36,561 nucleotides of DNA from Oscillospiraceae bacterium (GTDB lineage Bacteria > Bacillota > Clostridia > Oscillospirales > Oscillospiraceae): contig JAFRQP010000028.1 of assembly GCA_017428565.1 (NCBI GenBank), forward strand, positions 1 through 36,561. Direction: 5' to 3'. A program made the position numbers and the translations under genes. The number at the start of each line of letters is the position of its first letter. Positions within the stretch are counted from its first letter, which is position 1. The notes below the pieces were generated by a model, which searched no databases, was not told the origin of the DNA, and saw nothing but the letters and a program-made list of their open reading frames with translations. This document shows, piece by piece, positions 630 through 36,168 of this stretch.

Positions 630-663
630 AGTGAAGAGTGAAGAGTGAAGAGTGAAAAGTGAC
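630..663. repeat. Period-7 tandem array (unit AGTGAAG)
   Basis: About five consecutive 7-nt units, AGTGAAG with one AGTGAAA variant, lie 19 bp upstream of the clpB start and therefore inside its 5' leader. The same unit recurs at 14600-14643 and 19701-19763 and in reverse complement at 17192-17212. Period and unit are read directly; any function is unknown. Confidence 0.85.
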
Positions 664-708
664 GAGTTGAGGTGTCGCCTGCGGCGACGGATCGGAACCC
701 CCCCTATC

Positions 709-828
709 CCCCAGTGTGCGCACTGGGGACTTCCCCCTGAGGGGGAAGCAAGACTTCCCGGCGTCCTTGCCTCCCCCTTAGGGGGAGGTGGCATCCGGCG
801 TCTCACGCAAGCCGGATGACGGTAGGGG
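709..828. repeat. Cluster of palindromic repeats upstream of clpB, including hairpin module copy A
   Basis: Four hairpins follow one another. A perfect 8-bp stem lies in CCCCAGTGTGCGCACTGGGG (709-728). TTCCCCCTGAGGGGGAA is at 731-747. A GCCTCCCCC/GGGGGAGG stem spans 769-788. CATCCGGC (792-799) pairs with GCCGGATG (811-818), followed by ACGGTAGGGG. The last two stems form a two-hairpin module that recurs at 35996-36140 and 36276-36335. An extra small stem, GTCGCC/GGCGAC, lies at 674-688. No gene is seen in this interval. Confidence 0.8.
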
Positions 829-847
829 TGTCGTCTCCTCTTCCGCC

Positions 848-872
848 GTAGGGGCGATAGCCGAATCGCCCG
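848..872 (+). repeat. GTAGGG-type hairpin repeat
   Basis: GTAG is followed by a hairpin whose GGGCGA arm pairs with TCGCCC. It belongs to a family with the same GTAGGG start and pyrimidine-rich CCCG end but different stem sequences at 15605-15631, 17059-17082 (reverse) and 36365-36388. Confidence 0.65.
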
Positions 873-890
873 CCGCGTCCTCCGCCTTCT

Positions 891-921
891 AAAAACTAAA
901 AACTGAAAACTAAAAACTAAA
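891..921. repeat. Period-7 tandem array (unit AAAACTA)
   Basis: Four 7-nt units, AAAACTA with one AAAACTG variant, lie at the 3' end of the ribbon-helix-helix gene, and the TAG stop of that gene (917-919 in complement) falls inside the array. The reverse complement of the array at 36141-36168 is the same unit with C or G at the last position. Confidence 0.85.
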
Positions 922-1564
922 TGTGGATCTTCGCCTGGGTCATGGCGGCGTAGTAGGCGGCCTCCACCTCGTGGGCATCAAAGCGGCCGGAGAGGTAGCC
1001 CTTCATCAGCCGGTCGAACAGCTGGATGTATGCGGACAGGGCCTCGGCCAGCTCCTCGGCCGTGCAGTCCCGCTCCGGGACGGCGATGGAGCGCAGGAAC
1101 TTGCCGTCATAGAGGGCGTAGTCGATCCGCGCGCCGGTGGCGGGGGCCAGATGGGCGTCCTCGATCCGCTTCCAGAGCCGGAAAAACTCGGTCATGGCCT
1201 GCAGCAGCGGGGCGGACTGGGTGCGGAACAGCACCGACAGCTCCCCGATGGACTCGCCCCCACCCCGGTACAGCTCCACCTCGTACTTCACCGTGGGCCG
1301 GTACTTGTACTCCAGAGAGCTTTTCAGCGACATGCTGGAGGAGTTGGGCGCGAAGAAGGGCACCAGGTCCCGGCTGGGGCTCAGCAGGGCCTGGATGGCG
1401 GAGAGCACGTCGTTGATGCGCCGCTCCGGCGTGGTGTAGCCCACGTACTCCGCCAAGATCTGATTGATGAGGCTGGAGCGGTTGGTGCCCATGCGGTGGG
1501 CCATGGCGTCCACCTCCCGCACCACCTCGTCGTTGAGCATCAGGCTGTAAAGGGTCTTTTTCAT
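917..1564 (-). CDS. Ribbon-helix-helix domain protein of unknown function
   Basis: A 215-residue protein. Residues 1-43 look like a ribbon-helix-helix (CopG/Arc-type) DNA-binding fold: a short strand KTLYSLMLNDE, a helix VVREVDAMAHRM, the turn GTNRSS and a second helix LINQILAEYVGY. The remaining ~170 residues contain no motif I recognise and have mixed polar/aromatic composition. The frame is open further upstream to 1756, but the ATG at 1562-1564 has AAAGGATGA just before it and a good promoter at 1631-1659 lies inside the longer version, so the short form is chosen. A DNA-binding role is inferred from the N-terminus alone. It may repress its own AT-rich control region (inverted repeat at 1665-1693). 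It lies on the same strand as clpB, 305 bp upstream of it. Confidence 0.7.
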   Translation of the reverse strand: MKKTLYSLMLNDEVVREVDAMAHRMGTNRSSLINQILAEYVGYTTPERRINDVLSAIQALLSPSRDLVPFFAPNSSSMSLKSSLEYKYRPTVKYEVELYRGGGESIGELSVLFRTQSAPLLQAMTEFFRLWKRIEDAHLAPATGARIDYALYDGKFLRSIAVPERDCTAEELAEALSAYIQLFDRLMKGYLSGRFDAHEVEAAYYAAMTQAKIHI

Positions 1565-1630
1565 GGGAAGATCATCCTTTCCCGGGGGACGCCGGTTCCG
1601 CCGCGCGCCTCCCCCTTTTCTCATGGCTGT

Positions 1631-1659
1631 ATCATACACCCTGCGAAAACTTTTGTCAA
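1631..1659 (-). promoter_or_regulatory. SigA-type promoter of the ribbon-helix-helix gene
   Basis: On the minus strand, TTGACA (1654-1659) and TATGAT (1631-1636) are separated by 17 bp, with the -10 box about 67 bp upstream of the ATG. Confidence 0.75.
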
Positions 1660-1664
1660 CAGTT

Positions 1665-1693
1665 ATATATAAATTTTTATTCAAATTATATAT
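1665..1693. promoter_or_regulatory. AT-rich inverted repeat between divergent promoters (candidate operator)
   Basis: ATATATAA (1665-1672) and TTATATAT (1686-1693) are perfect inverted repeats 13 bp apart, between the divergent promoters of the ribbon-helix-helix gene and tRNA-Ser. Ribbon-helix-helix proteins often bind paired short operators, so autoregulation is plausible but not shown. Confidence 0.35.
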
Positions 1694-1715
1694 GGCGCCG
1701 AGAAAATACTTTCCC

Positions 1716-1744
1716 TTGCAATTTGCAAAAGCTTCGGATATAAT
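1716..1744 (+). promoter_or_regulatory. Promoter of tRNA-Ser
   Basis: TTGCAA (1716-1721), a 17-bp spacer and a perfect TATAAT (1739-1744) end 12 bp before the first base of the mature tRNA. Confidence 0.8.
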
Positions 1745-1756
1745 AGAGCGGCGCAC

Positions 1757-1848
1757 GGAGGGTTACTCAAGTGGTCGAAGAGGCGTGACTCGAAATCTCG
1801 TAGGCCGGCGATCCCGGCGCTAGGGTTCAAATCCCTAACCCTCCGCCA
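1757..1848 (+). tRNA. tRNA-Ser (anticodon CGA)
   Basis: A 92-nt class II tRNA that decodes UCG. The acceptor stem GGAGGGT (1757-1763) pairs with ACCCTCC (1838-1844), followed by discriminator G and an encoded CCA (1846-1848). The anticodon loop CTCGAAA carries CGA at 1791-1793. A long variable arm has a GCCGG/CCGGC stem, and the T arm is TAGGG-TTCAAAT-CCCTA. The anticodon stem CGTGA/TCTCG has a central T-T mismatch (positions 29-41). The transcript is served by the promoter just upstream, and a hairpin follows at 1853-1883. Confidence 0.95.
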
Positions 1849-1852
1849 GAAA

Positions 1853-1883
1853 AGGATTGCTATTTTTACAAGATAGCAATCCT
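1853..1883 (+). terminator. Terminator-like hairpin after tRNA-Ser
   Basis: AGGATTGCTAT (1853-1863) and ATAGCAATCCT (1873-1883) form a perfect 11-bp stem 4 nt after the CCA. The T-tract after it is weak. The right arm ATAGCAATC occurs again in direct orientation at 2782-2790, beyond the AT-rich gene. Confidence 0.55.
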
Positions 1884-1922
1884 GTTTCATATATGGCTGG
1901 AATTACTTGGAGAAGGTGTCTT

Positions 1923-2705
1923 ATGGTTTTCAATAATGAAATCAACCATTTAAAACTGTGGTGTATCCATAAAGCAGAGTCGTATCAACAAAAGTATGCA
2001 GGATACGGAGGCATCTGTTATGTTGGTTATCAAGTCGCCTATGAAATGGAGTTCAAGCTATCAACACTCATAGACAAATCGTTTGAAAGCATAAATGAAT
2101 TGAGAGAAGAAATACTGAATTTCATCTACATTCATTATGAGCCCTCCGTTTTAAAACCTCAGAATAGTGCGGCAAAGCACATCGTTGATAAAACAAATCA
2201 AGAATTTTGTGATTATTTGGAAGAAGTGATTTCCCGAAGGGAAGCTCTTTCTTTGGCAGATATCTCGTATAAGCGAGTTGTTGTTGGCGCGGAAGCTGTT
2301 GCACTGAAAGAGAAGTTTCGTTTGATCTGGCAATATGTAAATACATCATATTGGTTCCCCCTTATGGGGGAGGAACCAACAGAAATCTCAGAGAAGTTTT
2401 TTATCATGTATGACTTTTTTGAGCCTTATGTGAAACAGCTTGAACAGATAATAGGTCTTCCACAAGTACATATATATAGTTTTGGTGAAAACATTTTTCT
2501 ACCAGAACACTGTATTGAAACCACAGAATTGATTGAATTCGGCGGATGCGAAAGGATATATACAGATAAGGGTTTCTCATGGGCGATCTATTTTTCTCAC
2601 GAAGGTACCATTTCATTTGCGGGTTCAATAGTTCCTATTGCTAAAAAACTGCTCTTAGCCGAAAAAGAGCATTGGAACAGATTTGAATGGAATGAAGAAG
2701 AATAA
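1923..2705 (+). CDS. AT-rich orphan protein, 260 aa, unknown function
   Basis: The gene is clearly more AT-rich than all its neighbours and uses A/T-ending codons, which suggests recent acquisition. The ATG at 1923 has GGAGAAGG about 10 bp upstream; an open stretch back to 1857 crosses the tRNA hairpin and is not used. No signal peptide, membrane segment or catalytic motif is recognised. The protein is acidic, soluble-looking and rich in Tyr, Phe and Glu, ending in WNEEE. The segment from about residue 205 (IEFGGCERIYTDKGFSWAIY) to 240 looks like a beta-rich fold reminiscent of immunity-type or SMI1-like cargo proteins, but I cannot assign a family. It sits alone between tRNA-Ser and a strong terminator, typical for cargo at a tRNA integration site. 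Confidence 0.75.
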   Translation: MVFNNEINHLKLWCIHKAESYQQKYAGYGGICYVGYQVAYEMEFKLSTLIDKSFESINELREEILNFIYIHYEPSVLKPQNSAAKHIVDKTNQEFCDYLEEVISRREALSLADISYKRVVVGAEAVALKEKFRLIWQYVNTSYWFPLMGEEPTEISEKFFIMYDFFEPYVKQLEQIIGLPQVHIYSFGENIFLPEHCIETTELIEFGGCERIYTDKGFSWAIYFSHEGTISFAGSIVPIAKKLLLAEKEHWNRFEWNEEE

Positions 2706-2799
2706 AGTATTATTTTCAATTAGTCAAGCATTTTTCGATTTAAGCGTTACGAAATTTAACGACAACCCCTGCTTTGTCAAAATAGCAATCTTTGCTCAT

Positions 2800-2840
2800 G
2801 ACAAAAGGTCCCTGCCCTTTTTGGGCAGGGACCTTTTGTC
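2800..2840. terminator. Strong bidirectional terminator
   Basis: An 18-bp perfect stem, GACAAAAGGTCCCTGCCC (2800-2817) with GGGCAGGGACCTTTTGTC (2823-2840) around a TTTTT loop. The A-rich start and T-rich end of the stem allow termination on both strands. It closes the AT-rich gene on the plus strand. Confidence 0.85.
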
Positions 2841-2847
2841 GTCAAGT

Positions 2848-2862
2848 GGTTAGGGATTTGAA
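2848..2862 (-). repeat. Inverted 15-nt copy of the tRNA-Ser T-arm/acceptor segment
   Basis: GGTTAGGGATTTGAA is the exact reverse complement of TTCAAATCCCTAACC at 1826-1840 in tRNA-Ser. A 15-nt exact match within 1 kb is not expected by chance. It may be an attachment-site remnant of a tRNA-targeting element (inverted after integration) or a relic of a second tRNA gene. No integrase gene is present. Confidence 0.55.
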
Positions 2863-2932
2863 TCATGTCCGAAAGCCCCGGCGATGCTTCCCGTCCCGAT
2901 GCAAAATTCGTCTTCCCCCCGGCGGCTTTTTG

Positions 2933-2941
2933 TGATATACT
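2933..2941 (+). promoter_or_regulatory. Extended -10 promoter for the SpoIIE-type phosphatase
   Basis: TGA-TATACT forms a TGn extended -10 element about 90 bp before the ATG at 3032. No good -35 box is seen 17 bp upstream. The rest of the 2863-3031 gap holds no gene I can support. Confidence 0.4.
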
Positions 2942-3031
2942 TATTTTAATAACTTTCTTTGCCATTTTTTCGGCCGTCGGGGTCCATGGGATGCTTTCCC
3001 GGCGGTGTTCTTCAGAGGGGAGAAGCGTTCC

Positions 3032-4594
3032 ATGGACAATATCATCAAGAAAAAGCTCTTTATATCCAGACGGCTGATGGCGCTGGGCTTTGTCCTCACC
3101 CTGCTTCTGTTCGCGCTGATGGTCATCCTGTGCATCGTCCGCGGCTTTGCCGACATGGAACCGAGATGGGTATTCAATGTCGGGACGGACGTGGTCTCGA
3201 TGGCCGTGTGCGCGGTGGTTTATTTCGGCTGTATGATGGACTCCAACGGCCTGAGCGAAAACACGTCGCTGTTCACCACCCTTGTGCTGGTCAACGACTT
3301 CGCCCTGTTTTTTGACGCCTTCGCCTGGGTCCTGCAGGGGCTGGCGCCTTACGCGTTCTGGAACCGCCTGGTAAACGCGCTGCTGTATGCCAACGGCTCC
3401 GCCGTGATCTATTTATTCTGGCTCTACGTGACCATCACCCTGGAGATGGAGAGCCGGAGACTTCGGATCGTCAAGAAAGTGCTGGGCATCCTGCTGCTTC
3501 CCGATGTGCTGATCAAGCTGGCAAACCTCTTCCTCCCGATCTATTTCGTCGTCGACGCCGCCGGCGTTTATCAGCGCGGAACGTATTTCGGCTTCAGCTA
3601 TCTGTATCTGGGCATCGCGATGTTGACCTTCGTTTCCGAGCTCGTCGGTTCCAGGGTTTCGCTCCGGCAGAAGATCGTGGCGCTCTCCTTTATTACGATC
3701 CCCGTGCTGAACCAGCTGCTGATCGGCCGTTCCTTCGGTCTGTCCACCCAGTATTCCTCCACGCTGCTCTCCATCGTGCTGATCTACGGCGTCCTGTTTG
3801 CGGATCGGGGCAAAACCCTCGCGGCGACAGAGCAGGAGCTGAACACCGCCGCCGGCATTCAGGTCGGTTCCCTGCCCAGCGCTTTCCCGGCCTTTCCGGA
3901 GCGCAGCGATTTCGACATCTACGCCAGCATGGCCCCCGCCAGAGAGGTGGGCGGCGATTTCTACGATTTTTACCTGCTTGACGACGACCATTTGTGTCTG
4001 ATCATCGCGGATGTATCGGGAAAAGGCGTCCCGGCGGCGCTGTTTATGATGTCCACCAAGATCTTGCTCCAGAGCTACGCGCAGACGGATTTTTCTCCCT
4101 CGTCTATCCTCCGGAAGGCAAACAGCCGGATCTGCGCCAGCGACAGCAAGGACATGTTTGTAACCGTCTGGCTGGGCGTCCTGGATCTGCGTACCGGCAC
4201 GCTGACCGCGGCGAACGCCGGGCACGAATACCCCGTCATCCATCGAAAAGGCCGTCCCTTCGAGCTGATGAAGGACAGGCACAGCTTTGTTCTCGGCGGG
4301 ATGGAAAATACGGACTACAAGGAGTATGCGATCCAACTGGAAGCCGGAGACGAGATTTTCCTGTACACGGACGGCATTCCGGAGGCGAACAATCCGGCCA
4401 ACGTTCTCTACGGCACGGAGCGGATGCTGGAAGCGCTGAACCGCACGGAGGAAGGCAGCCTGAAGGACCTGCTGGACGCGGTCAGGCAGGATGTGGATCA
4501 ATTTGCGGAGGGCAAGGAACAATTTGACGACCTGACCATGCTGTGCCTGCGCTATTTGGGCAAAGAAAGGGCCGCGGAAGAAAAAACGGACTGA
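3032..4594 (+). CDS. Membrane-anchored SpoIIE/RsbU-type PP2C serine phosphatase
   Basis: A 520-residue protein. Residues 15-260 hold roughly seven or eight hydrophobic helices (for example FVLTLLLFALMVILCIV at 20-36 and TLLSIVLIYGVLF at 244-256), acting as a membrane sensor module. Residues 290-515 are a SpoIIE-type PP2C phosphatase: MAPAREVGGDFYDFY with metal-binding D309, IIADVSGKGVPAALFM with D327, then NAGHEYPVI, IFLYTDGIPEANN and a final DDLTMLCLRY. Such enzymes dephosphorylate STAS-domain anti-sigma-factor antagonists and so switch sigma-factor partner systems, or act in sporulation signalling. The ATG at 3032 follows AGGGGAG; an ATG-like frame from 3005 overlaps that site and is rejected. 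No STAS or anti-sigma gene is adjacent, so its target is not known. A terminator follows at 4612. Confidence 0.88.
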   Translation: MDNIIKKKLFISRRLMALGFVLTLLLFALMVILCIVRGFADMEPRWVFNVGTDVVSMAVCAVVYFGCMMDSNGLSENTSLFTTLVLVNDFALFFDAFAWVLQGLAPYAFWNRLVNALLYANGSAVIYLFWLYVTITLEMESRRLRIVKKVLGILLLPDVLIKLANLFLPIYFVVDAAGVYQRGTYFGFSYLYLGIAMLTFVSELVGSRVSLRQKIVALSFITIPVLNQLLIGRSFGLSTQYSSTLLSIVLIYGVLFADRGKTLAATEQELNTAAGIQVGSLPSAFPAFPERSDFDIYASMAPAREVGGDFYDFYLLDDDHLCLIIADVSGKGVPAALFMMSTKILLQSYAQTDFSPSSILRKANSRICASDSKDMFVTVWLGVLDLRTGTLTAANAGHEYPVIHRKGRPFELMKDRHSFVLGGMENTDYKEYAIQLEAGDEIFLYTDGIPEANNPANVLYGTERMLEALNRTEEGSLKDLLDAVRQDVDQFAEGKEQFDDLTMLCLRYLGKERAAEEKTD

Positions 4595-4611
4595 TCGGGC
4601 AAAAGCACAGA

Positions 4612-4646
4612 CCGGGACAGAGGATGCTCCTCTGTCCCGGCGTTTT
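4612..4646 (+). terminator. Terminator of the SpoIIE-type phosphatase gene
   Basis: CCGGGACAGAGGA and TCCTCTGTCCCGG form a 13-bp stem around TGC, followed by CGTTTTTG. Confidence 0.9.
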
Positions 4647-4648
4647 TG

Positions 4649-4677
4649 TTGCCGTCAGGCGGCTTTTCTGGTATAAT
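4649..4677 (+). promoter_or_regulatory. Promoter of the YdcF-type gene
   Basis: TTGCCG (4649-4654), a 17-bp spacer and TATAAT (4672-4677), 35 bp before the ATG and right after the preceding terminator. Confidence 0.8.
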
Positions 4678-4712
4678 CGCCTCATCATAACGGGATTCGC
4701 GGAGGAATAGAC

Positions 4713-5519: not shown

Positions 5520-5691
5520 GAACGGCAGCCGGGAACGGAAAATTTGACAGAATTGCCCTTTTCTCGCTGGTCTGCCGGAATGCTGTGGGCGGATGAAGCC
5601 GAGGGCCCATCCTCGCTGCGGACAAGGACCGGCATGCGGAAAGACAAAGCGAAGCTTGCCGCAGGGCTCAAACAGCAAGAAAGCAGAAAAG

Positions 5692-5725
5692 CAACTTCAA
5701 GTTGCGAAAAAGCAAATTGAAGTTG
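5692..5725. promoter_or_regulatory. Twin 13-bp palindromes upstream of the XRE pseudogene (candidate operators)
   Basis: CAACTTCAAGTTG (5692-5704, perfect palindrome around C) and CAAATTGAAGTTG (5713-5725, one mismatch) start 21 bp apart, that is two helical turns on the same DNA face. They lie 53-86 bp upstream of the HTH reading frame, as expected for an autoregulatory operator pair. Another inverted repeat, GAGCAT/ATGCTC, is at 5736-5755. Confidence 0.45.
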
Positions 5726-5777
5726 GGGAAAAAAAGAGCATCAAGCGATATGCTCCTTTTGCAAGGAGGATGATCCT

Positions 5778-6309: not shown

Positions 6310-6430
6310 GCGAACAACTCCCCGTTGGACGTGGTGAACACGGACCTTTTCGGCGTCTTCGGCGAAAGGCTGGCGCCATCAGGAAAGAGAGCCCTTCGTC
6401 CTTCTGCGCTTCGGCGGGCAGTCCCTTGTA

Positions 6431-7243: not shown

Positions 7244-7286
7244 GCTCTCGTCCTCCTTGTGTGATATGGAATTCTTTTGTATGATG

Positions 7287-7315
7287 ATTATATCACGCGC
7301 TGCCCCGCCGCGCAA
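7287..7315 (-). promoter_or_regulatory. Promoter of the SDR gene
   Basis: On the minus strand, TTGCGC (7310-7315), a 17-bp spacer and a perfect TATAAT (7287-7292), 43 bp before the ATG. Confidence 0.75.
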
Positions 7316-7344
7316 GCAGAGGGAGGCCCGCTTTCGTTTTTCTC

Positions 7345-7373
7345 TTGCATGTCCGGGCAGATCATGGTATTGT
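7345..7373 (+). promoter_or_regulatory. Promoter of the small lipoprotein gene
   Basis: TTGCAT (7345-7350), a 17-bp spacer and TATTGT (7368-7373), 32 bp before the ATG at 7406. Confidence 0.65.
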
Positions 7374-7405
7374 AGAGGACAGCCAAATATGAGGAGGCGG
7401 ATTCC

Positions 7406-7759: not shown

Positions 7760-7788
7760 GCCCGCCGGAGCCGAAGCTCCCCCGCGCG

Positions 7789-14261: not shown

Positions 14262-14597
14262 TTGAAGCTGAAAATCGCGCTGCTGCTGTGTCTGATGGGT
14301 GCGGCGCTGTTCTCCGGCGCGGAGGCCCTGCGCAGTCTGAAAAGCGGGGCGGGCGAGGCCTTTCCGGAGGCGCTTTACGCCCCCTTCGCCCGCAACGCGG
14401 ACCGGGCCGCCTATGTTCTGGGCCGGGAGGGGGCCTATCTGGCCGTCTTTCCCCCGGGCGGGGGCCGGGAGCCGCTGAACGTCACGGCCATCGAGCTGCA
14501 GACTCTGCGGCGGGTGGACCGGGCCATGGTGGAGGCGGGGCTGCCCGTGCGCAGCCGCAGGGAGCTGCTGCAGCTGCTGGAGGATCTGGGCTCGTAA
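14262..14597 (+). CDS. Small exported protein with TTG start, unknown function
   Basis: A 111-residue protein. The start is a TTG at 14262 with AAGGAGG 7 nt upstream; no in-frame ATG is close enough to a Shine-Dalgarno site. A short basic start and hydrophobic stretch (MKLKIALLLCLMGAALFSGA) look like a signal peptide or membrane anchor. A soluble part follows with APFARNADRAAYVLGREGAYLAVF, then a helical end VDRAMVEAGLPVRSRRELLQLLEDLGS. The strand-rich middle with YVLGREGAYLAVF resembles BofC/YpmB-like small periplasmic folds, but the similarity is weak and I do not name a family. It is divergent from the PBP gene with 235 bp between starts. A heptad repeat array begins 3 nt after its stop. 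Confidence 0.7.
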   Translation: MKLKIALLLCLMGAALFSGAEALRSLKSGAGEAFPEALYAPFARNADRAAYVLGREGAYLAVFPPGGGREPLNVTAIELQTLRRVDRAMVEAGLPVRSRRELLQLLEDLGS

Positions 14598-14599
14598 AC

Positions 14600-14643
14600 A
14601 GTGAAAAGTGAAGAGTGAAAAGTGAAGAGTGAAGAGTGAAGAA
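14600..14643. repeat. Period-7 tandem array (units AGTGAAA/AGTGAAG)
   Basis: Six consecutive 7-nt units immediately after the TAA of the small exported protein gene. The unit is shared with 630-663 and 19701-19763. Confidence 0.85.
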
Positions 14644-14735
14644 TTATGGCGTCTCTCTGGGGATGATGATAAGGATCGCCGGGCGATCCCCTCGCTTCTC
14701 CCTTTTCACTCGATTTTCCCTCTCCACAAAAACAG

Positions 14736-15139: not shown

Positions 15140-15380
15140 GAAAACAGAGAACGCTCTGCGGTGCGCGTGTTTGTCCTGATGGACTTGCGGCTCATGAAAC
15201 CCACATCTCTTATAAGGGATGCCGATTTGAATCTGCGGATTGCAGGCCTCCCGGCCTCGGCCGGACGTTGGAAGCAGCGAAACAGAACTTAGGCGACCCA
15301 CCTGCCTATGTGTGCAGGTTACTACTGAGCCGGCACGGCACACGCGGAGAGGCTCCCCCGGGCAACCGGGGGAGTTTTTT
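15140..15380 (+). ncRNA. ssrS: Candidate 6S RNA
   Basis: The interval codes for no protein yet has a -10 box at its start and a strong terminator at its end, about 240 nt in total. Its ends can pair (CTCTGCG at 15154-15160 with CGCGGAG at 15343-15349; GCGTGT at 15165-15170 with ACACGC at 15340-15345), leaving a long largely unpaired middle as in 6S RNA, which mimics an open promoter and sequesters the SigA holoenzyme. A small internal hairpin CATC...GATG encloses CTTATAAG (15204-15221), and a CCTGC/GCAGG hairpin lies at 15300-15318. The ATGAAACCCACAT segment and the GAACTTAGGCGACCC segment look familiar from clostridial 6S RNAs, but I cannot search. It could be another structured RNA. Confidence 0.5.
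15353..15380 (+). terminator. Rho-independent terminator of the structured RNA
   Basis: CTCCCCCGG (15353-15361), GCAA loop, CCGGGGGAG (15366-15374) and TTTTTT. Confidence 0.92.
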
Positions 15381-15825: not shown

Positions 15826-15895
15826 AACCCCTCCGTCAGCCTGGCGGCCGACGCCTCCCCTTGCACAGGGGGGATTTTTTGTGTCTCCGTCCCCC

Positions 15896-15951
15896 TAAGC
15901 ACTACGCACTGAGCACTAACTACTCTCTTCCCTGTTCGCTGTTCACTCTTC
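15896..15951. repeat. Period-7 array of eight units
   Basis: Eight 7-nt units in unbroken register change gradually from TAAGCAC through TAACTAC to ACTCTTC. The junction TAACTAC-TCTCTTC is shared with the array at 17171-17212. Confidence 0.85.
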
Positions 15952-17127: not shown

Positions 17128-17170
17128 CACCCCCCTTTAGGCAAGGGGGGCTTTGGCTTCCCCCGTCTCC

Positions 17171-17212
17171 TAAGCACTAAGCACTAACTACTCTCTTCAC
17201 TCTTCACTGAAA
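17171..17212. repeat. Period-7 tandem array of six units
   Basis: Units TAAGCAC (twice), TAACTAC, TCTCTTC, ACTCTTC and ACTGAAA in register. It lies directly before the terminator of the glutamate dehydrogenase gene. Confidence 0.85.
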
Positions 17213-18800: not shown

Positions 18801-19715
18801 ATGATCACCGAGAAAGCCTTTGGCAAATACCGTCTCTTCACGCTCTCCGCCGGGAAGCTGGAGGTCTCCGTCACCGATCTGGGGGCCACCGTGCAGCGCA
18901 TCCGCTTCCGCGGGCGGGACTGCATCCTGGGCTACGACAGCCCGGAGGAGTACCTGGCGGGCACGGGCTACCTGGGAGCCACCGTGGGCCGGGTGGGCAA
19001 CCGCATCGGCGGCGCGGCCTTCACCCTGGACGGCGTCCGCTACGCCCTCGCGCCCAACGAGGGGCCCAACCAGCTCCACGGCGGGCCGGATTCCTATGAC
19101 CGCCGCCGCTGGGAGGCGGAGGCCCTTGATGAAACCACCCTGCGCTTCACCCTGCTCTCCCCCGACGGGGACAACGGCTTCCCCGGCGCGCTGCGGGCCG
19201 AGGTGGAATACCGGGTCAGCGAAGCGGCCCTGCGCATCCGCTTCGGCGGCCTGTGCGACCGGGACACCCTCTACGCCCCTACGAATCACATGTATTTCGA
19301 CCTGGGAGGCGAGGGTCGGGCCCTGGACCTGCGGATGCAGCTCGCGGCGGACCGCTATGTGGAGACCGGCGAGGGGCTGATCCCCACGGGGCGCCTGCTT
19401 CCCGCGGAGGGGGACTTTGACTTCCGGCAGCTCCGCCCCGTGGCCCGGGACTACGACCACGCCTTCGTCCTCACCGGGGAGCGGGCCTGCGTCCTGGAGG
19501 GCGGCGGGCTGCGCATGGAGCTCTGCACCGACTTCCCCGCCCTGCAGGTCTATACCGGCAGCGGCCTCGCGGCGCCGCACCGGCGCAACCAGGGTCTGGC
19601 CCTGGAGCCGGAGTTTTTGCCGGACAGCCCCAACCACCCCGGCTTCTCCGACATCCGTCTTCGGGCCGGAGAGCCCTTCTCCCGCTGGGCGGAGTACAGG
19701 TTCAGTGAAAAGTGA
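18801..19715 (+). CDS. galM: Aldose 1-epimerase (galactose mutarotase)
   Basis: A 304-residue mutarotase that interconverts alpha and beta anomers of hexoses in the cytoplasm, feeding the Leloir pathway or other sugar use. Catalytic residues are seen as His93 (NQLHGG), His163 (YAPTNHMYFDLGG) and Glu269 (GLALEPEF). GRVGNRIGGAAF (63-74) and DYDHAFVL are also family hallmarks. It is slightly shorter than the 340-aa E. coli enzyme. AAAGGAGGATCCTG fixes the start. The last codons (Phe-Ser-Glu-Lys-stop) are made by the first units of a period-7 repeat array, so the repeat has apparently supplied the natural C-terminus. No gal operon genes are adjacent. Confidence 0.92.
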   Translation: MITEKAFGKYRLFTLSAGKLEVSVTDLGATVQRIRFRGRDCILGYDSPEEYLAGTGYLGATVGRVGNRIGGAAFTLDGVRYALAPNEGPNQLHGGPDSYDRRRWEAEALDETTLRFTLLSPDGDNGFPGALRAEVEYRVSEAALRIRFGGLCDRDTLYAPTNHMYFDLGGEGRALDLRMQLAADRYVETGEGLIPTGRLLPAEGDFDFRQLRPVARDYDHAFVLTGERACVLEGGGLRMELCTDFPALQVYTGSGLAAPHRRNQGLALEPEFLPDSPNHPGFSDIRLRAGEPFSRWAEYRFSEK

Positions 19716-19763
19716 TTAGTGAAATGTGAAAAGTGAAAAGTGAAGAGTGAAGAGTGAAGAGAG
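19701..19763. repeat. Period-7 array of nine units overlapping the galM stop codon
   Basis: Nine 7-nt units (TTCAGTG, AAAAGTG, ATTAGTG, then AAAAGTG and AAGAGTG variants) in perfect register. The galM stop TGA at 19713-19715 is formed within the second and third units. Confidence 0.85.
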
Positions 19764-19783
19764 TTCAGGGGAGAGAATGGAAA

Positions 19784-23841: not shown

Positions 23842-24133
23842 TTTACTCCAACAAAAAACCGCCCTTACAAAAACCTGTAAGGGCGGGATAAAAATCTCGC
23901 GGTACCACCTTGCTTCGCGTCCTGCTCGCGCAGGGCGCCTTTGAGCGTTCCAACAAACGCATCCTCTGTAACGGGAGTACCCGTCGGGCGCTTGCCGTGC
24001 CGGTTCACGCCCGCAGCTCCGAGACCATGTTCTCCCGTCTTCCTTCTGTTCCCTCTCAGCTCCCGGAACTCTCTGTAAAGATCTCCGACGGGGTACTCTT
24101 CTCTTCAATGCCGCTTTATTTCGCTATGGAATT
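23842..24133 (-). promoter_or_regulatory. Methionine T-box leader of metNIQ
   Basis: The minus-strand leader contains the T-box sequence AAGGTGGTACCGCG (complement of 23898-23911), the site that pairs with the free NCCA end of uncharged tRNA. A terminator follows: CCGCCCTTACA (23859-23869) with TGTAAGGGCGG (23876-23886) and a T-run before the metN start. An AUG specifier is seen in GAGAACATGGTCTC (complement; ATG at 24026-24028), matching tRNA-Met. Uncharged tRNA-Met is expected to stabilise the antiterminator and switch on methionine uptake. The specifier position within stem I is judged by eye. Confidence 0.93.
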
Positions 24134-29134: not shown

Positions 29135-29166
29135 AGAGAGGAAGAAAACGAAAAGGAGGCGCGGGG

Positions 29167-32100
29167 ATGCTGCGCTTGATCATCGGAAAAGCCGGGACCG
29201 GCAAGACGGCCGCCATCTACGGGGAGCTCCGCCGGGCGGTGGAGCGGGGGGAGAGCCGCCGCTTCCTGCTGGTGCCGGAGCAATACAGCCACGAGGCCGA
29301 GCGGGAGCTCTGCCGCATCTGCGGGGACGCCCTCTCCCTCACGGCGGAGGTCTTCAGCTTCACGGGCCTTGCCCGGCGGATCGGGCAGGAAAAGGGCGGC
29401 CAGGCGGCGCCCCTGCTGGACAAGGGGGGGCGGCTGCTGTGCATGGCCCTGGCCCTGGACGCGGTGGGGGCGCGGCTGCAGGTCTACGGCGGCGCCCGCC
29501 ACAAGGCGGAGCTGCAGGAGCTGCTGCTGCGGGCCGTGGACGAGCTGAAGGGCGCCTGCGTGGGCGCGGCGCGGCTGACGGAGGCGGCGGAGCGCTGCCC
29601 CGGGGGCCTTGGCGAGAAGCTGCAGGACCTGGCGCTGATCCTGGAGGCCTACGACGCGGTGGTGGCCAAGGGCCGCGCCGATCCCTCCGACCGGCTGAGC
29701 CTCCTGGCCCGGCAGATCGAGGAGGGCGCCCTGGGCCCGGAGGACCGGGTCTATGTGGACGGCTTTCTGGACTTTACCTATCAGGAGCAGGCGGTGCTGA
29801 CGGCCATGCTGCGCCGGGGGGTGCAGCTCACGGTCTGTCTCGGTCTGGACGAGCCGGAGAGCGAGGACGAGATCTTTGCTCTCAGCCGCAGCGCCTTCCG
29901 CCGCCTGTACGCCGCCGCCCGGGAGCTGGGCGCGGAGGTCGAGCTTTCGCGCCCGGAGGCCGACAGGCCCGGCGACCCGGCCCTGCGCTTTTACGCGGAG
30001 GAGCTGTTCCGCTACGGCGGGCAGCGCTGGCAGGGCGATCCACCGCCCATCCGCCTGGGCTGCGCCGAGAGCATCCCCGCCGAGTGCGAGGCCGCGGCCG
30101 CCCGGGTGCTGGAGCTGGTGCGGGACGGGGGCTGCCGCTGGCGGGACATCGCCGTGGCGGTGCGGGGCTTCGAGGACTACCGCAGCGCCCTGGAAAACGC
30201 CTTCCGGCACTACGGCATCCCCCTCTTCGTCACGCGGAAGGACGAGCTGCTGCAAAAGCCCCTTCCGGCGCTGATCTCCCTGGCCTACGAGATCACCGAC
30301 GCCGGCTGGGACGTGGACGACATGATCAGCTATCTGGGCACCGGGCTCACCGGGCTCAGTCCGGACGAGTGCGATCTGCTCTCCGACTACATCTATAAAT
30401 GGCAGCTGCGGGGCGGCGCCTGGGCCCGGGAAAAGGACTGGCGCCAGCACCCGGAGGGCTACGGCGCGGAATACACGGAGGAGACCGAGGCGCGCCTGGC
30501 CCAAATCAACGCTCTGCGCCGCCGGGTGGCGGAGCCGCTGCAGCATTTCGCCTCCCGCTGCCGCCTGGCGGAGACCGCCGCCGGGCAGGCCGCGGCCCTC
30601 TCCGGGCTGCTGGAGGAGCTGCGGCTGCCGGAGCGGCTGGAGGCCCGGAGCCAAGAGCTGCTGGCGGACGGACGGGAGGAGCTGGGGCAGGAGTACCGGC
30701 AGCTCTGGGAGCTGACGGTCAGCGCTCTGGAGCAGAGCGCCGCGCTTTTGGGCGACATGCCCATGGACGCGGCGTCCTTCGGCCGGCTCTTCACCCGGAT
30801 GCTGTCCCAATACGATATCGGACTGATCCCCGTGTCCCTGGACCGGGTGGCCGCCGGCGATTTTGACCGGATGCGCCGCCGCAGTCTTAAGCACCTGCTG
30901 GTGCTGGGCTGCTGCGAGGGGCGGCTGCCCCTGTCCCGGGAGGAGGCCGGGGTCTTCGACCAGGAGGAGCGGGAGCGCCTGCTGGAGCTGGAGATCGACC
31001 TGGGCGCGGGAGAGCAGGAGCTGTGGCGGGAGTTTTCCCTGATCTACAGCGTTTTCACCCTGCCCTCGGAGAGTCTGAGTCTGAGCTATCCTCTCTGCGA
31101 TCACGAGGGGGAAGCCCTGCGCCCGGCCTATGTGTTCGAGCGGGCAAAGGCCCTCTTCTCCCTGCAGACAGAGCGGCTGAGCCTGGACCGTTCCCGGCTC
31201 GCCGCCCCGGCCCCGGCCCTGACTCTGGCGGCCCACGCCCTCCAGGGCGGGAACGCCGCCTCCGCCGCCGCCGCGGCCTACTTCCGGGAAGCGGCGCCGG
31301 AGCGCTTCGCCCGGCTGGAGCGGGCCGCCGAGAGCCGCCGGGGAAAGCTCTCCCCCGCGGCGGTGGAGGCCCTCTACGGCTCCCGGCTCTATCTCAGCGC
31401 CTCCCGCATCGACAAATTCGCCTCCTGCCGCTTCTCCTACTTCTGCCAGTACGGTCTGAAGGCCAAGCCCTATGAGCCGGCGGGCTTCCAGCCGCCGGAG
31501 ATCGGCACCTTCATGCACTATGTGCTGGAAAACGTGGCCCGGGAGGTCAAGCAGAAGGGCGGCTTTGCCCGGGTGGACGACGAGACGGTCAAGGCCCTGA
31601 CCCGGAGCTGGGTGGAGCGCTATATCCACGAGGAGCTGCAGGATTTTCAGGAAAAATCCGGCCGCTTCCTGCATCTGTTCCGGCGGCTCTGCGCCGACGT
31701 GGAGCTGGTGGTGCTGGACACCGCCCGGGAGCTGCGCCGCTCGGACTTTGAACCGCTGGACTTTGAGCTGGACTTCTCCAAGGCCCGGGACATCCGCCCC
31801 CTGGAGCTGGGCGACGGGGAGGGTGCCATGACCCTCACCGGCATAGCCGACCGGGTGGACGGCTGGCTCCACGAGGGGAAGCTCTACCTGCGGGTGGTGG
31901 ACTACAAGACCGGAAAAAAGGCCTTCTCCCTCTCGGACGTGTGGTACGGCATGGGTCTGCAGATGCTGCTGTACCTCTTCGCTCTGGAGGCCGACGGGGA
32001 GGGCCGCTACGGAAAAGAGATCGTCCCGGCGGGGGTCATGTACCTGCCGGCGCGCAGCGTCCTGCTGCAGGTGGACGCCGGCGCGGACGAGGCGGAGATC

Positions 32101-32502
32101 GCCAAAAAGCGCTCCGACGCCCTGCGCCGCAGCGGCCTGGTGCTGAACGACCCGGCGCTGTGGGAGGCCTGGGAAAAGGGCGAGGACAAGCGCTATATCC
32201 CCGTGAAATTCACCAGGCGCAGCTCCGGCGCCGACTCTCTGGCCTCCCTGGAGCAGCTGGGCCGGCTCTCCCGCCACCTGCGGGGGACTTTGAGCCACAT
32301 GGCCGGGGAGCTCCACCGGGGCAGCATCGCCGCCGACCCCTATTACCGCAGCCAGCAGGAGAGCGCCTGCCTGCGCTGCGACTATCTGGACGCCTGCTAT
32401 TTCACCGACGGCGAGGGCGGCGAGAGCTGCCGCTATCTGCCGAAGCTCAGCGACAGCAAGGTCTGGGACCTGCTGGGAGAGGAGGAAGCGGAGCATGCGT
32501 AA
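29167..32502 (+). CDS. addB: ATP-dependent helicase/nuclease subunit AddB
   Basis: A 1111-residue AddB subunit, partner of AddA in the double-strand-break end-processing helicase-nuclease. Walker A GKAGTGKT is at 7-14. FLLVPEQYSHEAEREL and VYVDGFLDFTYQE follow, typical of AddB. The C-terminal nuclease has LTGIADRVDGW and VVDYKTGKK. The four Fe-S cysteines that close the nuclease are at Cys754 (SCRFSYF) and Cys1068, Cys1071 and Cys1077 (CLRCDYLDAC), with the CxxCx5C spacing of B. subtilis AddB. AAGGAGG precedes the ATG. It overlaps addA by 8 nt. It is a little shorter than the ~1160-aa Bacillus subunit. A pair of AddAB should recognise a Chi-like site; none can be identified here. Confidence 0.95.
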   Translation: MLRLIIGKAGTGKTAAIYGELRRAVERGESRRFLLVPEQYSHEAERELCRICGDALSLTAEVFSFTGLARRIGQEKGGQAAPLLDKGGRLLCMALALDAVGARLQVYGGARHKAELQELLLRAVDELKGACVGAARLTEAAERCPGGLGEKLQDLALILEAYDAVVAKGRADPSDRLSLLARQIEEGALGPEDRVYVDGFLDFTYQEQAVLTAMLRRGVQLTVCLGLDEPESEDEIFALSRSAFRRLYAAARELGAEVELSRPEADRPGDPALRFYAEELFRYGGQRWQGDPPPIRLGCAESIPAECEAAAARVLELVRDGGCRWRDIAVAVRGFEDYRSALENAFRHYGIPLFVTRKDELLQKPLPALISLAYEITDAGWDVDDMISYLGTGLTGLSPDECDLLSDYIYKWQLRGGAWAREKDWRQHPEGYGAEYTEETEARLAQINALRRRVAEPLQHFASRCRLAETAAGQAAALSGLLEELRLPERLEARSQELLADGREELGQEYRQLWELTVSALEQSAALLGDMPMDAASFGRLFTRMLSQYDIGLIPVSLDRVAAGDFDRMRRRSLKHLLVLGCCEGRLPLSREEAGVFDQEERERLLELEIDLGAGEQELWREFSLIYSVFTLPSESLSLSYPLCDHEGEALRPAYVFERAKALFSLQTERLSLDRSRLAAPAPALTLAAHALQGGNAASAAAAAYFREAAPERFARLERAAESRRGKLSPAAVEALYGSRLYLSASRIDKFASCRFSYFCQYGLKAKPYEPAGFQPPEIGTFMHYVLENVAREVKQKGGFARVDDETVKALTRSWVERYIHEELQDFQEKSGRFLHLFRRLCADVELVVLDTARELRRSDFEPLDFELDFSKARDIRPLELGDGEGAMTLTGIADRVDGWLHEGKLYLRVVDYKTGKKAFSLSDVWYGMGLQMLLYLFALEADGEGRYGKEIVPAGVMYLPARSVLLQVDAGADEAEIAKKRSDALRRSGLVLNDPALWEAWEKGEDKRYIPVKFTRRSSGADSLASLEQLGRLSRHLRGTLSHMAGELHRGSIAADPYYRSQQESACLRCDYLDACYFTDGEGGESCRYLPKLSDSKVWDLLGEEEAEHA

Positions 32503-35500
32503 TTTCACGCCTACCGACGCCCAGCGCGCCGCCATCCAGCGGCGGGGCTGCGCGATCCTGGTGTCCGCCGGCGCGGGCAGCGGGAAGACCCGGGTGCTCA
32601 CCCAGCGGCTGATGGCGCAGCTTTGCGACCCGGAGGCCCCGGTGGACCTGGACCGCTTTTTGATCATCACCTTCACCCGGGCCGCGGCCGGGGAGCTGCG
32701 GGGCCGGATCATGCAGGAGCTGGCCGAGGCGCTGGCGGAGGATCCCGGCAACCGCCGTCTCCGGCGGCAGAGCGCCCTGCTGCGCCGGGCCCAGATCGGC
32801 ACCATCCACAGCTTCTGCTCCTCCTTTTTGCGGGAGCACAGCCACCTGGCCGGCATCGCCCCGGACTTCGCCGTGCTGGACGAGCAGCGGGGCCGCGCCA
32901 TGAAGGCCAGGGCCCTGGAGCGGGTGCTGGAGCTCTGCTATGACCAGCCGGAGAGCCACCCGGATTTCCTGCTGCTGGCCGATACCGTGGGCGCCGGGCG
33001 GGACGACGGGCGGCTTTCGGAGCTGGTGCTGGAGCTGCACGAGAAGATGCAGTGCCACGCCCGGCCGGCCCGCTGGGTCGCGCAGCAGGTGGAGGCCCTG
33101 GAGGCCGAAGCCGCCGATGCGGGCGAGACGGCCTGGGGCCGGGAGATCCTGCGCAGCGCGGCCGAGACCGTGGACTACTGGGCGGCAGAGTTTGACCGGA
33201 TGCTGGGTCTCATTTCCTCCGAGCCCGCCATCGCCAAGGCCTGGCTGGAGGGTTACGCCGACACCGCCGATGCTCTGCGGGAGCTGCGGCGCTGTCTGGA
33301 TCTGGGCTGGGAGCCCACCCGGGCCTGCTTCCCCCTCCCCTTCAAGATGGGGACCCTGCGCAAGTCCCCCGATCCGGCTCTCAGCGAGGGACTGAAGGCC
33401 CGCCGGGCCGCCTGCAAAACGGCCATGGAAAAGCTGGCCGCCCGCTTTGCCCAGCCCTCGGAGGCGCTGCTGCGGGATCTGCGGCTGACTGCCCCGGCCA
33501 TGAAGGCGCTGCTGCGCCTGGTGCTGGACTTCGACAAGGCCTTTACCGCCTCGAAGCGCAGGGCCAATCTGCTGGACTACGCGGATCTGGAGCATCTGAG
33601 CGCCCAGCTCCTGCTGGAGGAGGACGGCGCGCCCACGGAGCTGGCCCTTCGGCTGCGGGAGCGCTGGGCGGAGATCCTGGTGGACGAGTACCAGGACGTG
33701 AGCCAGGTGCAGGACGACATTTTCCGCGCCCTCAGCCGGGACGGGAGCAATCTCTTCCTGGTGGGGGACGTGAAGCAGTCCATCTACCGCTTCCGCCTGG
33801 CGGACCCGGGCATCTTCACCCGAAAATACGAACAGTACGCCGACGACGGCGACGCCGCCCCCGGCCAGCCCCGGCGCATCCTGCTGCGGGAGAATTTCCG
33901 CTCCCGGCGGGAGATCCTGGACGCGGCCAACGCGGTCTTCTCCCGCTGCATGTCCCGGGCTCTGGGCGACATCGACTACGACGAGGCCGCCGCCCTGCGC
34001 TTCGGCGCCGCGGGCTACGCCGGCAGCGTCCCCGTGCCGGAGCTGACGCTGCTGCGGCTCACGCCCGGCGGGGGCGAGGAGGAGGCGCCGGACAAGCTGC
34101 GGCAGGAGGCCGGCTTCGTGGCCGGCCAGATCCGGCGGCTGATGGCCCAGGGCCTGCAGGTGGAGGGCCGCCCCATGGATTACGGCGATATCGCCATCCT
34201 GCTGCGTTCGGCCAACAACGTGGGTCCCATCTACCGGCAGGAGCTGCAGCGTCTCGGCATCCCCGTGGGCTTCGGCCAGGGCGGGGGCTTCTTCCGGGCC
34301 GCCGAGGTGTCCGCGGTGCTGTCCATGCTGGCCATCCTGGACAATCCCCACCAGGACATCCCCCTGATCGCGGTGCTCCGCTCCCCCGCCCTGGGCTTCG
34401 ATGCGGACACCCTCTCCGCCATCCGGGCGGCGGACAAAAAGGCCGATTTCTTCACCGCCCTGCGCCTCTGGGCGCGGGACGACCGGCGGGGACAGGACTT
34501 TCTGGCCCTGCTGGAGCGGCTGCGCCGCCAGGCGCCGGATCTGCGGGCCGCCCAGCTGGTGGAGCGCATCCTGGAGGAGCTGGATCTGCTGGCCGTGTGC
34601 AGCGCCATGCGGGACGGCGAGCAGCGCCGGGCGCGGCTGCTGGAGCTGGTGGAGCTCTCCGAGCGCTTTGAGAGCACCGGCTACCGGGGCCTGCACCGCT
34701 TCGTGCTCTGGCTGCGCCGCATGGCGGAGCGGGGGCAGGAGCCCTCCCTGGGCGCGGAGAGCGGCTCTGCCGTGCACATCCTGTCCATCCACAAATCCAA
34801 GGGCCTGGAGTTCCCGGTGGTCTTCCTCTGCGACCTGGCCCACAGCTTCAACCGCCAGGACAGCCGCAGCGCCGTGCTGGTGCACCCGGAGCTGGGCCTG
34901 GGCCCCAAGGTCACGGACCTGGAGCGCCGGGTGCAGTACCCGGGTCTGGCCCGGGCCGCCGTCTCCCTGCGCCTGGAGCGGGAGATGCTCTCGGAGGAGC
35001 TGCGGCTGCTGTACGTGGGCATGACCCGGGCCAAGGAGCGCCTCTTTCTCAGCGCCGGGGCGAAGGACCCGGAGGGGCTGCGGGAAAAGGCGCGGCTGCT
35101 GGCGGACACGCCCATGGCCCCCGCCCTGCTGGCCGGGGCCCAGAGCCCCCTGCTGTGGCTGATGGGCGCGGCGCTGGCCGACGGGGAGGAGCATCTGCGC
35201 CTCTCCATCCGGGAGCCGGAGGAGGCCGCGGAGCAGCAGCCGGTCCTGCCGGAGATCCGGCCCGACGAGGAAACGGAAAGAGAGCTCCGGCGGGAGCTGG
35301 CCTTCGTCTACCCCCACCGGACGGCGGAGCGCCTGCCCTCCAAGGTCACGGCCACGGAACTGAAGGGCCGGGCGGCCCCCGACGAGGACGCCCGGGATCT
35401 TTCCCCCAAGCCCCGGCGCCCCTTCCGTCTGCCGGACTTCGCCCGGGGCGACAAGCCTCTCACCGGCGCGGAGAAGGGCACCGCCACCCACCTGGTGCTG

Positions 35501-35983
35501 CAGTACATGGACTTTGCCAAAGCCGGGAGCCTGGACGGCATCCGGGGCGAAATCGAACGCCTGCGGGAGGCCGGCTTCCTCTCCCCGCGGGAGTGTGACG
35601 CCGTGGACGCCGAGGCCATCCGGGCGCTCTTCGCCTCCCCCCTGGGGGAGCGGATGCTCTCCGCGCCCACGCTCAGGCGGGAGTTCAAATTCTCTCTGCT
35701 CTGCGACGCGGGGGACTTCTTCCCCGAGGCCGCCGGTGCCGGGGAGCAGGTGCTGCTGCAGGGCGTGGTGGACGCCTTCTGGGAGGAGGACGGGCAGCTC
35801 GTCATCCTGGACTACAAGACCGACCGGGTGAAAAGCCGCCGGGAGGCCGAGGAGCGGGCCAGGGTCTACGCCGGGCAGCTCCGGGCCTACGCCGGGGCCC
35901 TGACGCGCATCTGCCGCAAGAGCGTGCGGGAGTGCCTGCTGTACTTCCTGAACGCCGGGGAGACGGTGCGGGTGGAGATCTGA
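32495..35983 (+). CDS. addA: ATP-dependent helicase/nuclease subunit AddA
   Basis: A 1162-residue UvrD-like superfamily 1 helicase with C-terminal nuclease. The Q-motif FTPTDAQRAAI (4-14) and Walker A SAGAGSGKT (24-32) begin it. Other motifs are TFTRAAAGELRGRI, DEYQDVSQVQDDIF (Walker B), VGDVKQSIYRFRLADP, LRENFRSR, LSIHKSKGLEFPVVFL and LLYVGMTRAKERLF. The nuclease is seen as QGVVDAFWEEDGQLVILDYKTD. AddA is the 3'-5' motor and cleaves the 3' strand of the double-strand end; it works in the cytoplasm with AddB. Translation is coupled: ATGCGTAA overlaps the addB stop. The usual length is near 1200-1240. Confidence 0.95.
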   Translation: MRNFTPTDAQRAAIQRRGCAILVSAGAGSGKTRVLTQRLMAQLCDPEAPVDLDRFLIITFTRAAAGELRGRIMQELAEALAEDPGNRRLRRQSALLRRAQIGTIHSFCSSFLREHSHLAGIAPDFAVLDEQRGRAMKARALERVLELCYDQPESHPDFLLLADTVGAGRDDGRLSELVLELHEKMQCHARPARWVAQQVEALEAEAADAGETAWGREILRSAAETVDYWAAEFDRMLGLISSEPAIAKAWLEGYADTADALRELRRCLDLGWEPTRACFPLPFKMGTLRKSPDPALSEGLKARRAACKTAMEKLAARFAQPSEALLRDLRLTAPAMKALLRLVLDFDKAFTASKRRANLLDYADLEHLSAQLLLEEDGAPTELALRLRERWAEILVDEYQDVSQVQDDIFRALSRDGSNLFLVGDVKQSIYRFRLADPGIFTRKYEQYADDGDAAPGQPRRILLRENFRSRREILDAANAVFSRCMSRALGDIDYDEAAALRFGAAGYAGSVPVPELTLLRLTPGGGEEEAPDKLRQEAGFVAGQIRRLMAQGLQVEGRPMDYGDIAILLRSANNVGPIYRQELQRLGIPVGFGQGGGFFRAAEVSAVLSMLAILDNPHQDIPLIAVLRSPALGFDADTLSAIRAADKKADFFTALRLWARDDRRGQDFLALLERLRRQAPDLRAAQLVERILEELDLLAVCSAMRDGEQRRARLLELVELSERFESTGYRGLHRFVLWLRRMAERGQEPSLGAESGSAVHILSIHKSKGLEFPVVFLCDLAHSFNRQDSRSAVLVHPELGLGPKVTDLERRVQYPGLARAAVSLRLEREMLSEELRLLYVGMTRAKERLFLSAGAKDPEGLREKARLLADTPMAPALLAGAQSPLLWLMGAALADGEEHLRLSIREPEEAAEQQPVLPEIRPDEETERELRRELAFVYPHRTAERLPSKVTATELKGRAAPDEDARDLSPKPRRPFRLPDFARGDKPLTGAEKGTATHLVLQYMDFAKAGSLDGIRGEIERLREAGFLSPRECDAVDAEAIRALFASPLGERMLSAPTLRREFKFSLLCDAGDFFPEAAGAGEQVLLQGVVDAFWEEDGQLVILDYKTDRVKSRREAEERARVYAGQLRAYAGALTRICRKSVRECLLYFLNAGETVRVEI

Positions 35984-35995
35984 GGAAAGCCCCCT

Positions 35996-36140
35996 GCCTC
36001 CCCCTCAGGGACTTTTGCCGCCCGCAAAAGCTGCCAGTGGCAGGTTTTGCAGGCAAAAGAGGAGCGAAGCGAACAGTGGCATCCGGCGTCTCACGCCCTA
36101 AAGGACTAGCTTCGCGTCGCAAGCCGGATGCCGGAAGGGG
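35996..36140. repeat. Hairpin module copy B, split by two inserts
   Basis: The two-hairpin module found intact at 769-828 is here interrupted twice. GCCTCCCCCTCAGGG (35996-36010) is broken by a ~60-nt palindromic segment (CTTTTGC/GCAAAAG and CTGCCA/TGGCAG stems). The second hairpin, CATCCGGC (36080-36087) and GCCGGATG (36123-36130), carries a 24-nt extra loop containing CTAAAGGACTAGC. Both stems are otherwise unchanged. Confidence 0.65.
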
Positions 36141-36168
36141 TTTTGAGTTTTGAGTTTTCAGTTTTGAG
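36141..36168. repeat. Period-7 tandem array (unit TTTTGAG)
   Basis: Four units TTTTGAG, TTTTGAG, TTTTCAG and TTTTGAG. In complement this is AAAACTC/AAAACTG, the same family as 891-921. Confidence 0.85.

Follow-up and report, generated by a model that had tools for sequence, protein, structure and literature searches.

Heptad arrays in gaps of an Oscillospiraceae genome as probable arms of small IVS-like elements that can enclose an S23p gene

Short tandem arrays with a unit of seven nucleotides occur at seven places in a 36,561-nucleotide stretch of an Oscillospiraceae genome (contig JAFRQP010000028.1; this whole stretch is referred to here as the window), and they raise the question of what such arrays are and how they arose. 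All seven, noticed earlier in a sequence-only reading, were recovered both by TRF and by a plain period scan of the window (Table 1). We propose, with a probability of about 0.7, that heptad arrays form the ends of small intergenic selfish elements resembling the intervening sequences (IVS) of rRNA genes, either as arms of a complete element or as orphan arms. This is suggested by the finding that the same repeat words bracket S23p genes, mostly in mirror orientation and in several phyla.

Table 1. Heptad arrays and associated features of the window
Feature	Position	Strand	Remarks
Type A (AGTGAAG) array	630..667	+	TRF; left arm of half element
Hairpin GTCGCC-TGC-GGCGAC	674..688	+	3' of the 630 array; full elements have hairpins of this kind
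Type B (AGTTTTT) array	889..921	-	TRF; overlaps end of minus-strand ORF 917-1756
Type A array	14600..14649	+	TRF 14600-14642; left arm of degenerate full element
Remnant right arm CTTTTCACTC	14699..14711, approximate	-	Same element as the 14600 array
Composite array, type C (AGTGCTT) then type A (AGTGAAG)	15895..15951	-	TRF 15895-15919; recurrent junction
Composite array, type C then type A	17170..17208	-	TRF 17170-17187 plus 17193-17208
Type A array	19704..19768	+	TRF 19704-19758; includes aldose 1-epimerase stop codon (gene 18801-19715)
Type B (AGTTTTG) array	36140..36168	+	TRF; downstream of addA-like gene

Period-7 arrays and their repeat words

Nearly all arrays of the parent genome (G000; 2.69 Mb in 105 contigs, 83.7% complete, with 194 overlapping AGT(N4)x4 matches) are built from words of type A (AGTGAAR), type B (AGTTTTN or AGTTTCN) or type C (AGTGCKT). 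The sequence-only reading had described an exact 7-nt period in register. This description fails across the junction from type C to type A, where the step is 9 nt, and sister species have a period of 8 at the 630 site. The junction unit that had been singled out is indeed common to the 15896 and 17171 arrays, and was seen again at two further loci of the genome (L070:4048 and L073:13962). Contigs C13 (at its end), C20 and C53 (at the start) break within or beside heptad arrays, and copy numbers in the draft are therefore probably too low.

We scanned a genome sample of 363,798 bases, made up of the window and 20 further stretches of G000, with a main threshold of four copies at 85% match and a looser one of 80%. 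The main scan gave 24 arrays of period 7 and 0-3 for each of the other periods from 4 to 15, while Markov shuffles gave none at period 7, two at period 4 and none elsewhere. The comparison with shuffled sequence thus came out in favour of the arrays, and period 7 is the sole strongly enriched period in the genome sample. Stretches of cyanobacterial plasmids (450 kb) were also enriched in period 7, with 11 arrays and at most one at any other period, and several of their words lacked the A-A/G-T triplet discussed below.

The fixed ACT/AGT core claimed earlier is valid in this genus, though not generally. At the 80% threshold, AGT was present in the consensus of 28 of 29 period-7 arrays, without having been required. 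Elsewhere other words are used, namely AGTTCGT, AATGAAT and AATTCGG in G006, AGTTTGG, AGTGTGG and AGTGAAA in G036, AATGCAA and AGTTTAG in G055, and AGTGAAT and AATTCGG in G030. The triplet A-A/G-T occurs in 129 of 142 consensus words from nine genomes of the order, as against a composition expectation of 57%, in arrays that are not independent of each other. AGT as a universal core was rejected, as the arms GGGAAAA, GGGTGTA, ACAGGTG and AAAGCTA lack the triplet; the Chloroflexus heptad word GATAGRA, given in the available text of PMC6749651, also falls outside the AGT core. Variation between adjacent units was not lower at the AGT positions than at positions 4-6. We also considered and rejected the idea that the arrays are stop-codon cassettes: 26 of 29 typed G000 words have a stop in each frame of the AGT strand (5 do so for the opposite strand), but among 24 distinct words only 13 behave in this way. 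Stops in all frames are nevertheless a possible reason for the tolerance of arrays at gene ends.

The view of the arrays as an STRR-like family of related heptads, lying mostly in gaps, was upheld. A crude gene finder, which called 78-89% of bases coding, placed 69 of 101 A-A/G-T arrays from the nine genomes in gaps, 18 other arrays having been excluded beforehand.

S23p genes lie between heptad arms in six phyla

Neighbouring arrays within 160 bp of each other were convergent in 21 of 30 pairs, and the words of the left and right arms agreed at 5.71 of 7 positions, compared with 5.06 in a within-genome permutation (p=0.009, n=21). In full elements the arms enclose a core of the form ..TTATGGTGTC-hairpin-ATTTAAAT-hairpin-GACACCATAA.., and its hairpin stems covary, with changes on both sides in 10 of 25 predicted pairs (14 elements aligned, out of 19 copies). 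For the gene-less elements, pairing of the arms was predicted with z values of -3.6 to -11 in five of seven folded sequences. Two G000 elements matched many unlinked places in at least six and at least five, respectively, of seven sister genomes, and among the matches listed the dispersed copies were about 75-88% identical over 110-130 bp. Neither a target duplication nor a clean empty site was recognised by eye at the loci compared between species.

Long convergent pairs with TTATGG-type cores occurred in two cases, one of which (L148:8341-8791 in G030, 451 bp) encloses an S23p gene, its protein matching PF05635 (E 1e-28) and TIGR02436 (E 2e-32) in a profile search. PF05635 was present in 32 of 60 genomes at 72 places, two of these in G000, and it was found in 15 of 18 array-positive genomes versus 17 of 42 others (one-sided p=0.0023); the array-positive genomes without a match were G022, G033 and G035 (79, 94 and 81% complete), which have 1-2 array matches each.

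We inspected 40 of the 72 loci, 20 being the best match per genome and 20 chosen by hand, mostly from array-bearing genomes. Period-7 arrays lay on both sides of the gene within 200 bp at 17 of the 40 loci (11 of the best matches and 6 of the hand-chosen), and in 16 the two sides matched as reverse complements, whereas random placements in the stretches gave both-sided arrays in 1 of 4000 cases and matching ones in 0 of 4000. At periods 5, 6, 8, 9 and 10 the both-sided counts were 0-1 of 40. Of the 23 loci without arrays on both sides, 19 had none and 4 had them on one side. Four arm-less S23p genes adjoin other repeats by eye: long direct ATTTAGC-rich repeats at L409, and at L412, L417 and L418 units of roughly 25 nt that resemble hairpins.

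A similar arrangement was found on plasmids. Among 18 loci, taken from 28 records with a relative of a Nostoc S23p protein, 15 had a period-7 array on either side, and in 13 of these the words were inverted matches of each other; the corresponding figures for 4000 control placements were 7 and 4. The both-sided counts were 3/18 at period 8 and 1/18 at period 6. Two of the loci, L443 and L444, are near-copies. Four further loci (Treponema, Bernardetia, Monoglobus and Chlorohelix), taken from 26 records for the G030 protein, all had runs on both sides, plainly inverted in three and like-oriented beside the gene in Treponema. Taken together, both flanks carry arrays in 19 of the 22 named plasmid genes; L445, L456 and L457 were not called. 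Positive loci come from Cyanobacteriota, Pseudomonadota, Spirochaetota, Bacteroidota, Bacillota and Chloroflexota, and the single Gemmatimonadota locus was not called. When the lead loci L411 and L316 were dropped, 16 of 39 genome loci and 14 of 17 plasmid loci were still both-sided. The orientation of the arms varies in places, being divergent at L428 and like-oriented beside the gene at L458, with direct arrays at L447 too. Annotated plasmid S23p loci sit between protein genes, as do, by eye, the genome loci that were read. At L445, L447, L454 and L460 the neighbours of the four-helix-bundle gene belong to cas or restriction-modification systems (cas10/cmr3 once, cas6/cas4 twice and hsdS/hsdR once), and some cassettes, such as those at cas6/cas4 and hsdS/hsdR, thus have both neighbours in a single system.

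The arms of S23p genes are made of the words that also form arrays elsewhere. In G000, type C arms flank the gene at L405 and type A arms the gene at L421, which had been fetched as a test, and type B arms flank S23p in G019, G032 and G017. Five species carry S23p at one site, whose neighbours read like the end of a dGTPase gene and the start of DnaG, with four different words, each the same on left and right: AGTGCGT (G000), AGTTCGT (G006), AGTTTCT (G017 and G032) and AGTTTTT (G019). In five genomes, 66 of 100 arrays differed at no more than one position from a cassette word of the genome they belong to, compared with 151 of 400 for the cassette words of the other genomes (AATAATG, AATAGTG and AATAACG, mostly rotated duplicates, were omitted). 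The predicted RNA of S23p cassettes showed pairing of the arms (z -2.9 and -5.9).

We therefore envisage that a complete element would consist of one S23p/IVP gene of about 120 codons, encoding a four-helix bundle, between two arrays that are usually convergent reverse complements. The gene-less form would have the arms and two hairpins only, and a solo array would be an orphan arm. Once transcribed, the arms would base-pair to form a stem that closes a loop made up of the gene or the hairpins. If it behaves like the stem of rRNA intervening sequences, it would be cut by RNase III, in which case the element could be excised from, or cleaved within, polycistronic RNA, and could thus be tolerated at gene ends and inside operons. 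The elements are presumably mobile, and the S23p pentamer may be the factor that binds the arms.

Five of the seven arrays in the window are solo, without core or gene, and no S23p gene was identified in the window. Judging from the identity of their words and the sites shared with relatives, these five are probably orphan arms. One of the composite arrays (17170) adjoins a terminator-like hairpin after a glutamate dehydrogenase-family gene. The fold of positions 14594-14720 had a z value of -2.7, with 3 of 200 shuffles equally good, and is only slightly better than shuffled sequence; that of positions 626-720 (z +1.3) was no better than shuffles. Rfam matched a 6S RNA at 15150-15354 (+) and a T-box leader at 23876-24117 (-), and nothing besides these in the window, L072, L078 and L080.

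Turnover at shared sites and alternative explanations

Relatives were gathered via the AddB protein (80 of 208), and are mostly metagenome genomes labelled Ruminococcaceae, Oscillospiraceae or Clostridiales; many of them carry isolate names of a rumen type. Arrays do occur in relatives, though patchily: AGT(N4)x5 was found in 18 of 60 genomes (our own included), and across the phylum in 56 of 299, with the same core at period 8 in 21 of 299. The stretches covered for G001 and G035, 79 and 66 kb respectively, had no arrays.

At the 630 site, G000, G006 and G089 have period-7 arrays with differing words and G062 and G118 arrays of period 8, and in all five the array precedes the same kind of hairpin. 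The 889 site has an AATTCGG array in G006, G062 and G118. No array was present at the 14600 site in G096, which has only 5 bp there, or in G062. Among 28 readable loci of 29 from relatives, the 17170 site has an array in G030 only, and at the 19704 site G062 has a short AGTGAAC array and G118, G021 and G089 none. Period-8 arrays (AATGAAGA, AATGAAGG and kin) were also noticed in L246, L247, L291 and L310 at sites with period 7 in G000. For the gap L080:5232-5375, 30 orthologous loci were read, including our own. Ten species have one architecture with differing words (AGTGAAR, AATGAAT, AGTGAAT and AGTTTGG/AGTGTGG), one has a type C array, and the others have another palindrome, remnants or no array. 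These same-site comparisons indicate that the arms change jointly at a locus and differ there between species; slippage combined with conversion between arms may be the cause of this joint turnover.

Could local replication slippage alone have produced the arrays? A polymerase that pauses at extragenic hairpins or terminators might slip preferentially by 7 nt, with S23p genes merely lying in repeat-prone gaps. This would agree with the shifts of unit number and word at one site, even to period 8, and with the hairpin directly downstream of 48 of 101 array ends (a raw count without a control set). In most genomes, moreover, long simple repeats are most often heptanucleotides, according to Mrazek 2007 as cited in the available text of PMC4679880. 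We consider this explanation unlikely, since it leaves unexplained why, in six phyla, the arms on either side of a gene of about 350 nt are reverse complements, why unlinked loci of a genome use one word, and why copies of about 120 bp that share a core are dispersed.

A second alternative is that the arrays are sites for a regulatory protein or for post-transcriptional control, as proposed for the TAACTGA repeats of Beggiatoaceae. The arrays do hug gene ends, 42 of 65 placed arrays being nearest to a gene 3' end at a median distance of 1 nt (32 of the 42 on the sense strand), and divergent gaps hold 6 of the 65. However, presence differs among close species at the same gene and words differ by species, which makes a regulatory role very improbable.

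We give hardly any credence to REP/BIME-type elements mobilised by a RAYT (Y1) transposase, and rejected RAYT/Y1 as mobiliser: paired hairpins with a 5' foot (ATGGT) are dispersed 3' of genes, like the GTAG/CGTC REPs in the available text of PMC3733652, and weak Y1 proteins occur in several relatives, but PF01797 has no match in G000 (83.7% complete), which with G036 is the most array-rich of the 60 genomes, and among 17 Y1 loci an array was found within about 1 kb at L224, a short array at L222 and none at 15, which does not amount to a dedicated Y1 transposase flanked by the repeats. The RAYT-like Y1 proteins of L224, L226, L228, L229 and L236 carry in-frame RGDPCGRP and AT(A/T)RVAPT peptides. 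These read like the GTAGGGGCGAC palindrome in both orientations, and the transposase gene therefore seems to contain its own REP pair.

The reading of heptad arrays as arms of IVS-like elements can be extended, tentatively and with some doubt on our part, to STRRs and their kin as a class. All would then be arms belonging to a single, ancient family of minimal mobile elements with S23p as the sole protein, a toroidal pentamer that reads the species-specific word, and the elements would spread via RNA or hairpin DNA and carry gene-less copies along. If the pentamer recognises such a word, arm and protein would be expected to co-evolve.

Significance and relation to known systems

The heptad repeats of bacterial gaps and the 'S23 ribosomal' four-helix-bundle proteins, both long-standing orphans, appear to be parts of one little-noticed element family. 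Regarding them as one element provides a testable origin for the repeats and a candidate substrate for S23p; it also leads one to expect that many bacterial messenger RNAs contain RNase III sites.

Heptad arrays in gaps are already published for cyanobacteria, Xanthomonas and Beggiatoaceae. The GGGAATC heptads of Xanthomonas are described, in the available text of Rehm 2015 (PMC4692102), as lying near the 5' neighbour gene and as forming close convergent pairs (70 and 75 cases; 186 and 183 repeats), and TAACTGA repeats were reported by MacGregor 2015, as far as the accessible part of that work goes. STRRs and these repeats share with the arrays studied here tandem period-7 units in gaps; they differ in that, in the portions available, no link to S23p is made and G-quadruplexes or regulation are proposed. 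In line with the sequence-only reading, no description of heptad arrays in clostridia was found in our literature search, which covered few subscription papers. In the same search, limited also to the accessible parts of the papers, we found no link of gap heptad arrays to S23p genes; the available text of PMC6749651, PMC4853749 and PMC5524665 does not treat it, nor was it matched in that of PMC12699852. Three features are new beyond the sequence-only reading: the convergent pairing, the cores with their hairpins, and the S23p gene that such arms enclose elsewhere in the genome.

Like REP/BIME/REPIN sequences and MITEs, the gene-less copies are short palindromic elements that are dispersed outside genes and encode nothing themselves; they differ in having tandem heptads as arms, and no association with RAYT was found. 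With regard to MITEs, inverted arms are present and no target site duplication was recognised by eye. Avd of diversity-generating retroelements shows weak profile similarity to the Nostoc S23p protein.

Intervening sequences with an S23p ORF occur in the 16S or 23S rRNA genes of Leptospira, Coxiella and Brucella. According to the available text of PMC4990558, the Coxiella IVS has (GACAGAT)3, in a repeat number that varies between strains, before the S23p gene, and a 28-bp terminal stem that is cut by RNase III; Coxiella S23p is thought there probably not to be made in vivo, and Xanthomonas S23p is given as a homopentamer of four-helix bundles. The PDB entries 2gsc (Xanthomonas XCC0516) and 2rld have five chains each. 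The likeness lies in an S23p ORF (here in the gene-bearing copies only) between complementary, stem-forming termini (predicted for the cassettes called here). The difference lies in location, within rRNA genes there and between protein genes here, and in the many gene-less copies and the arrays on both sides. As the elements lie outside a 16S/23S rRNA helix, we term them 'IVS-like' and do not class them as IVS.
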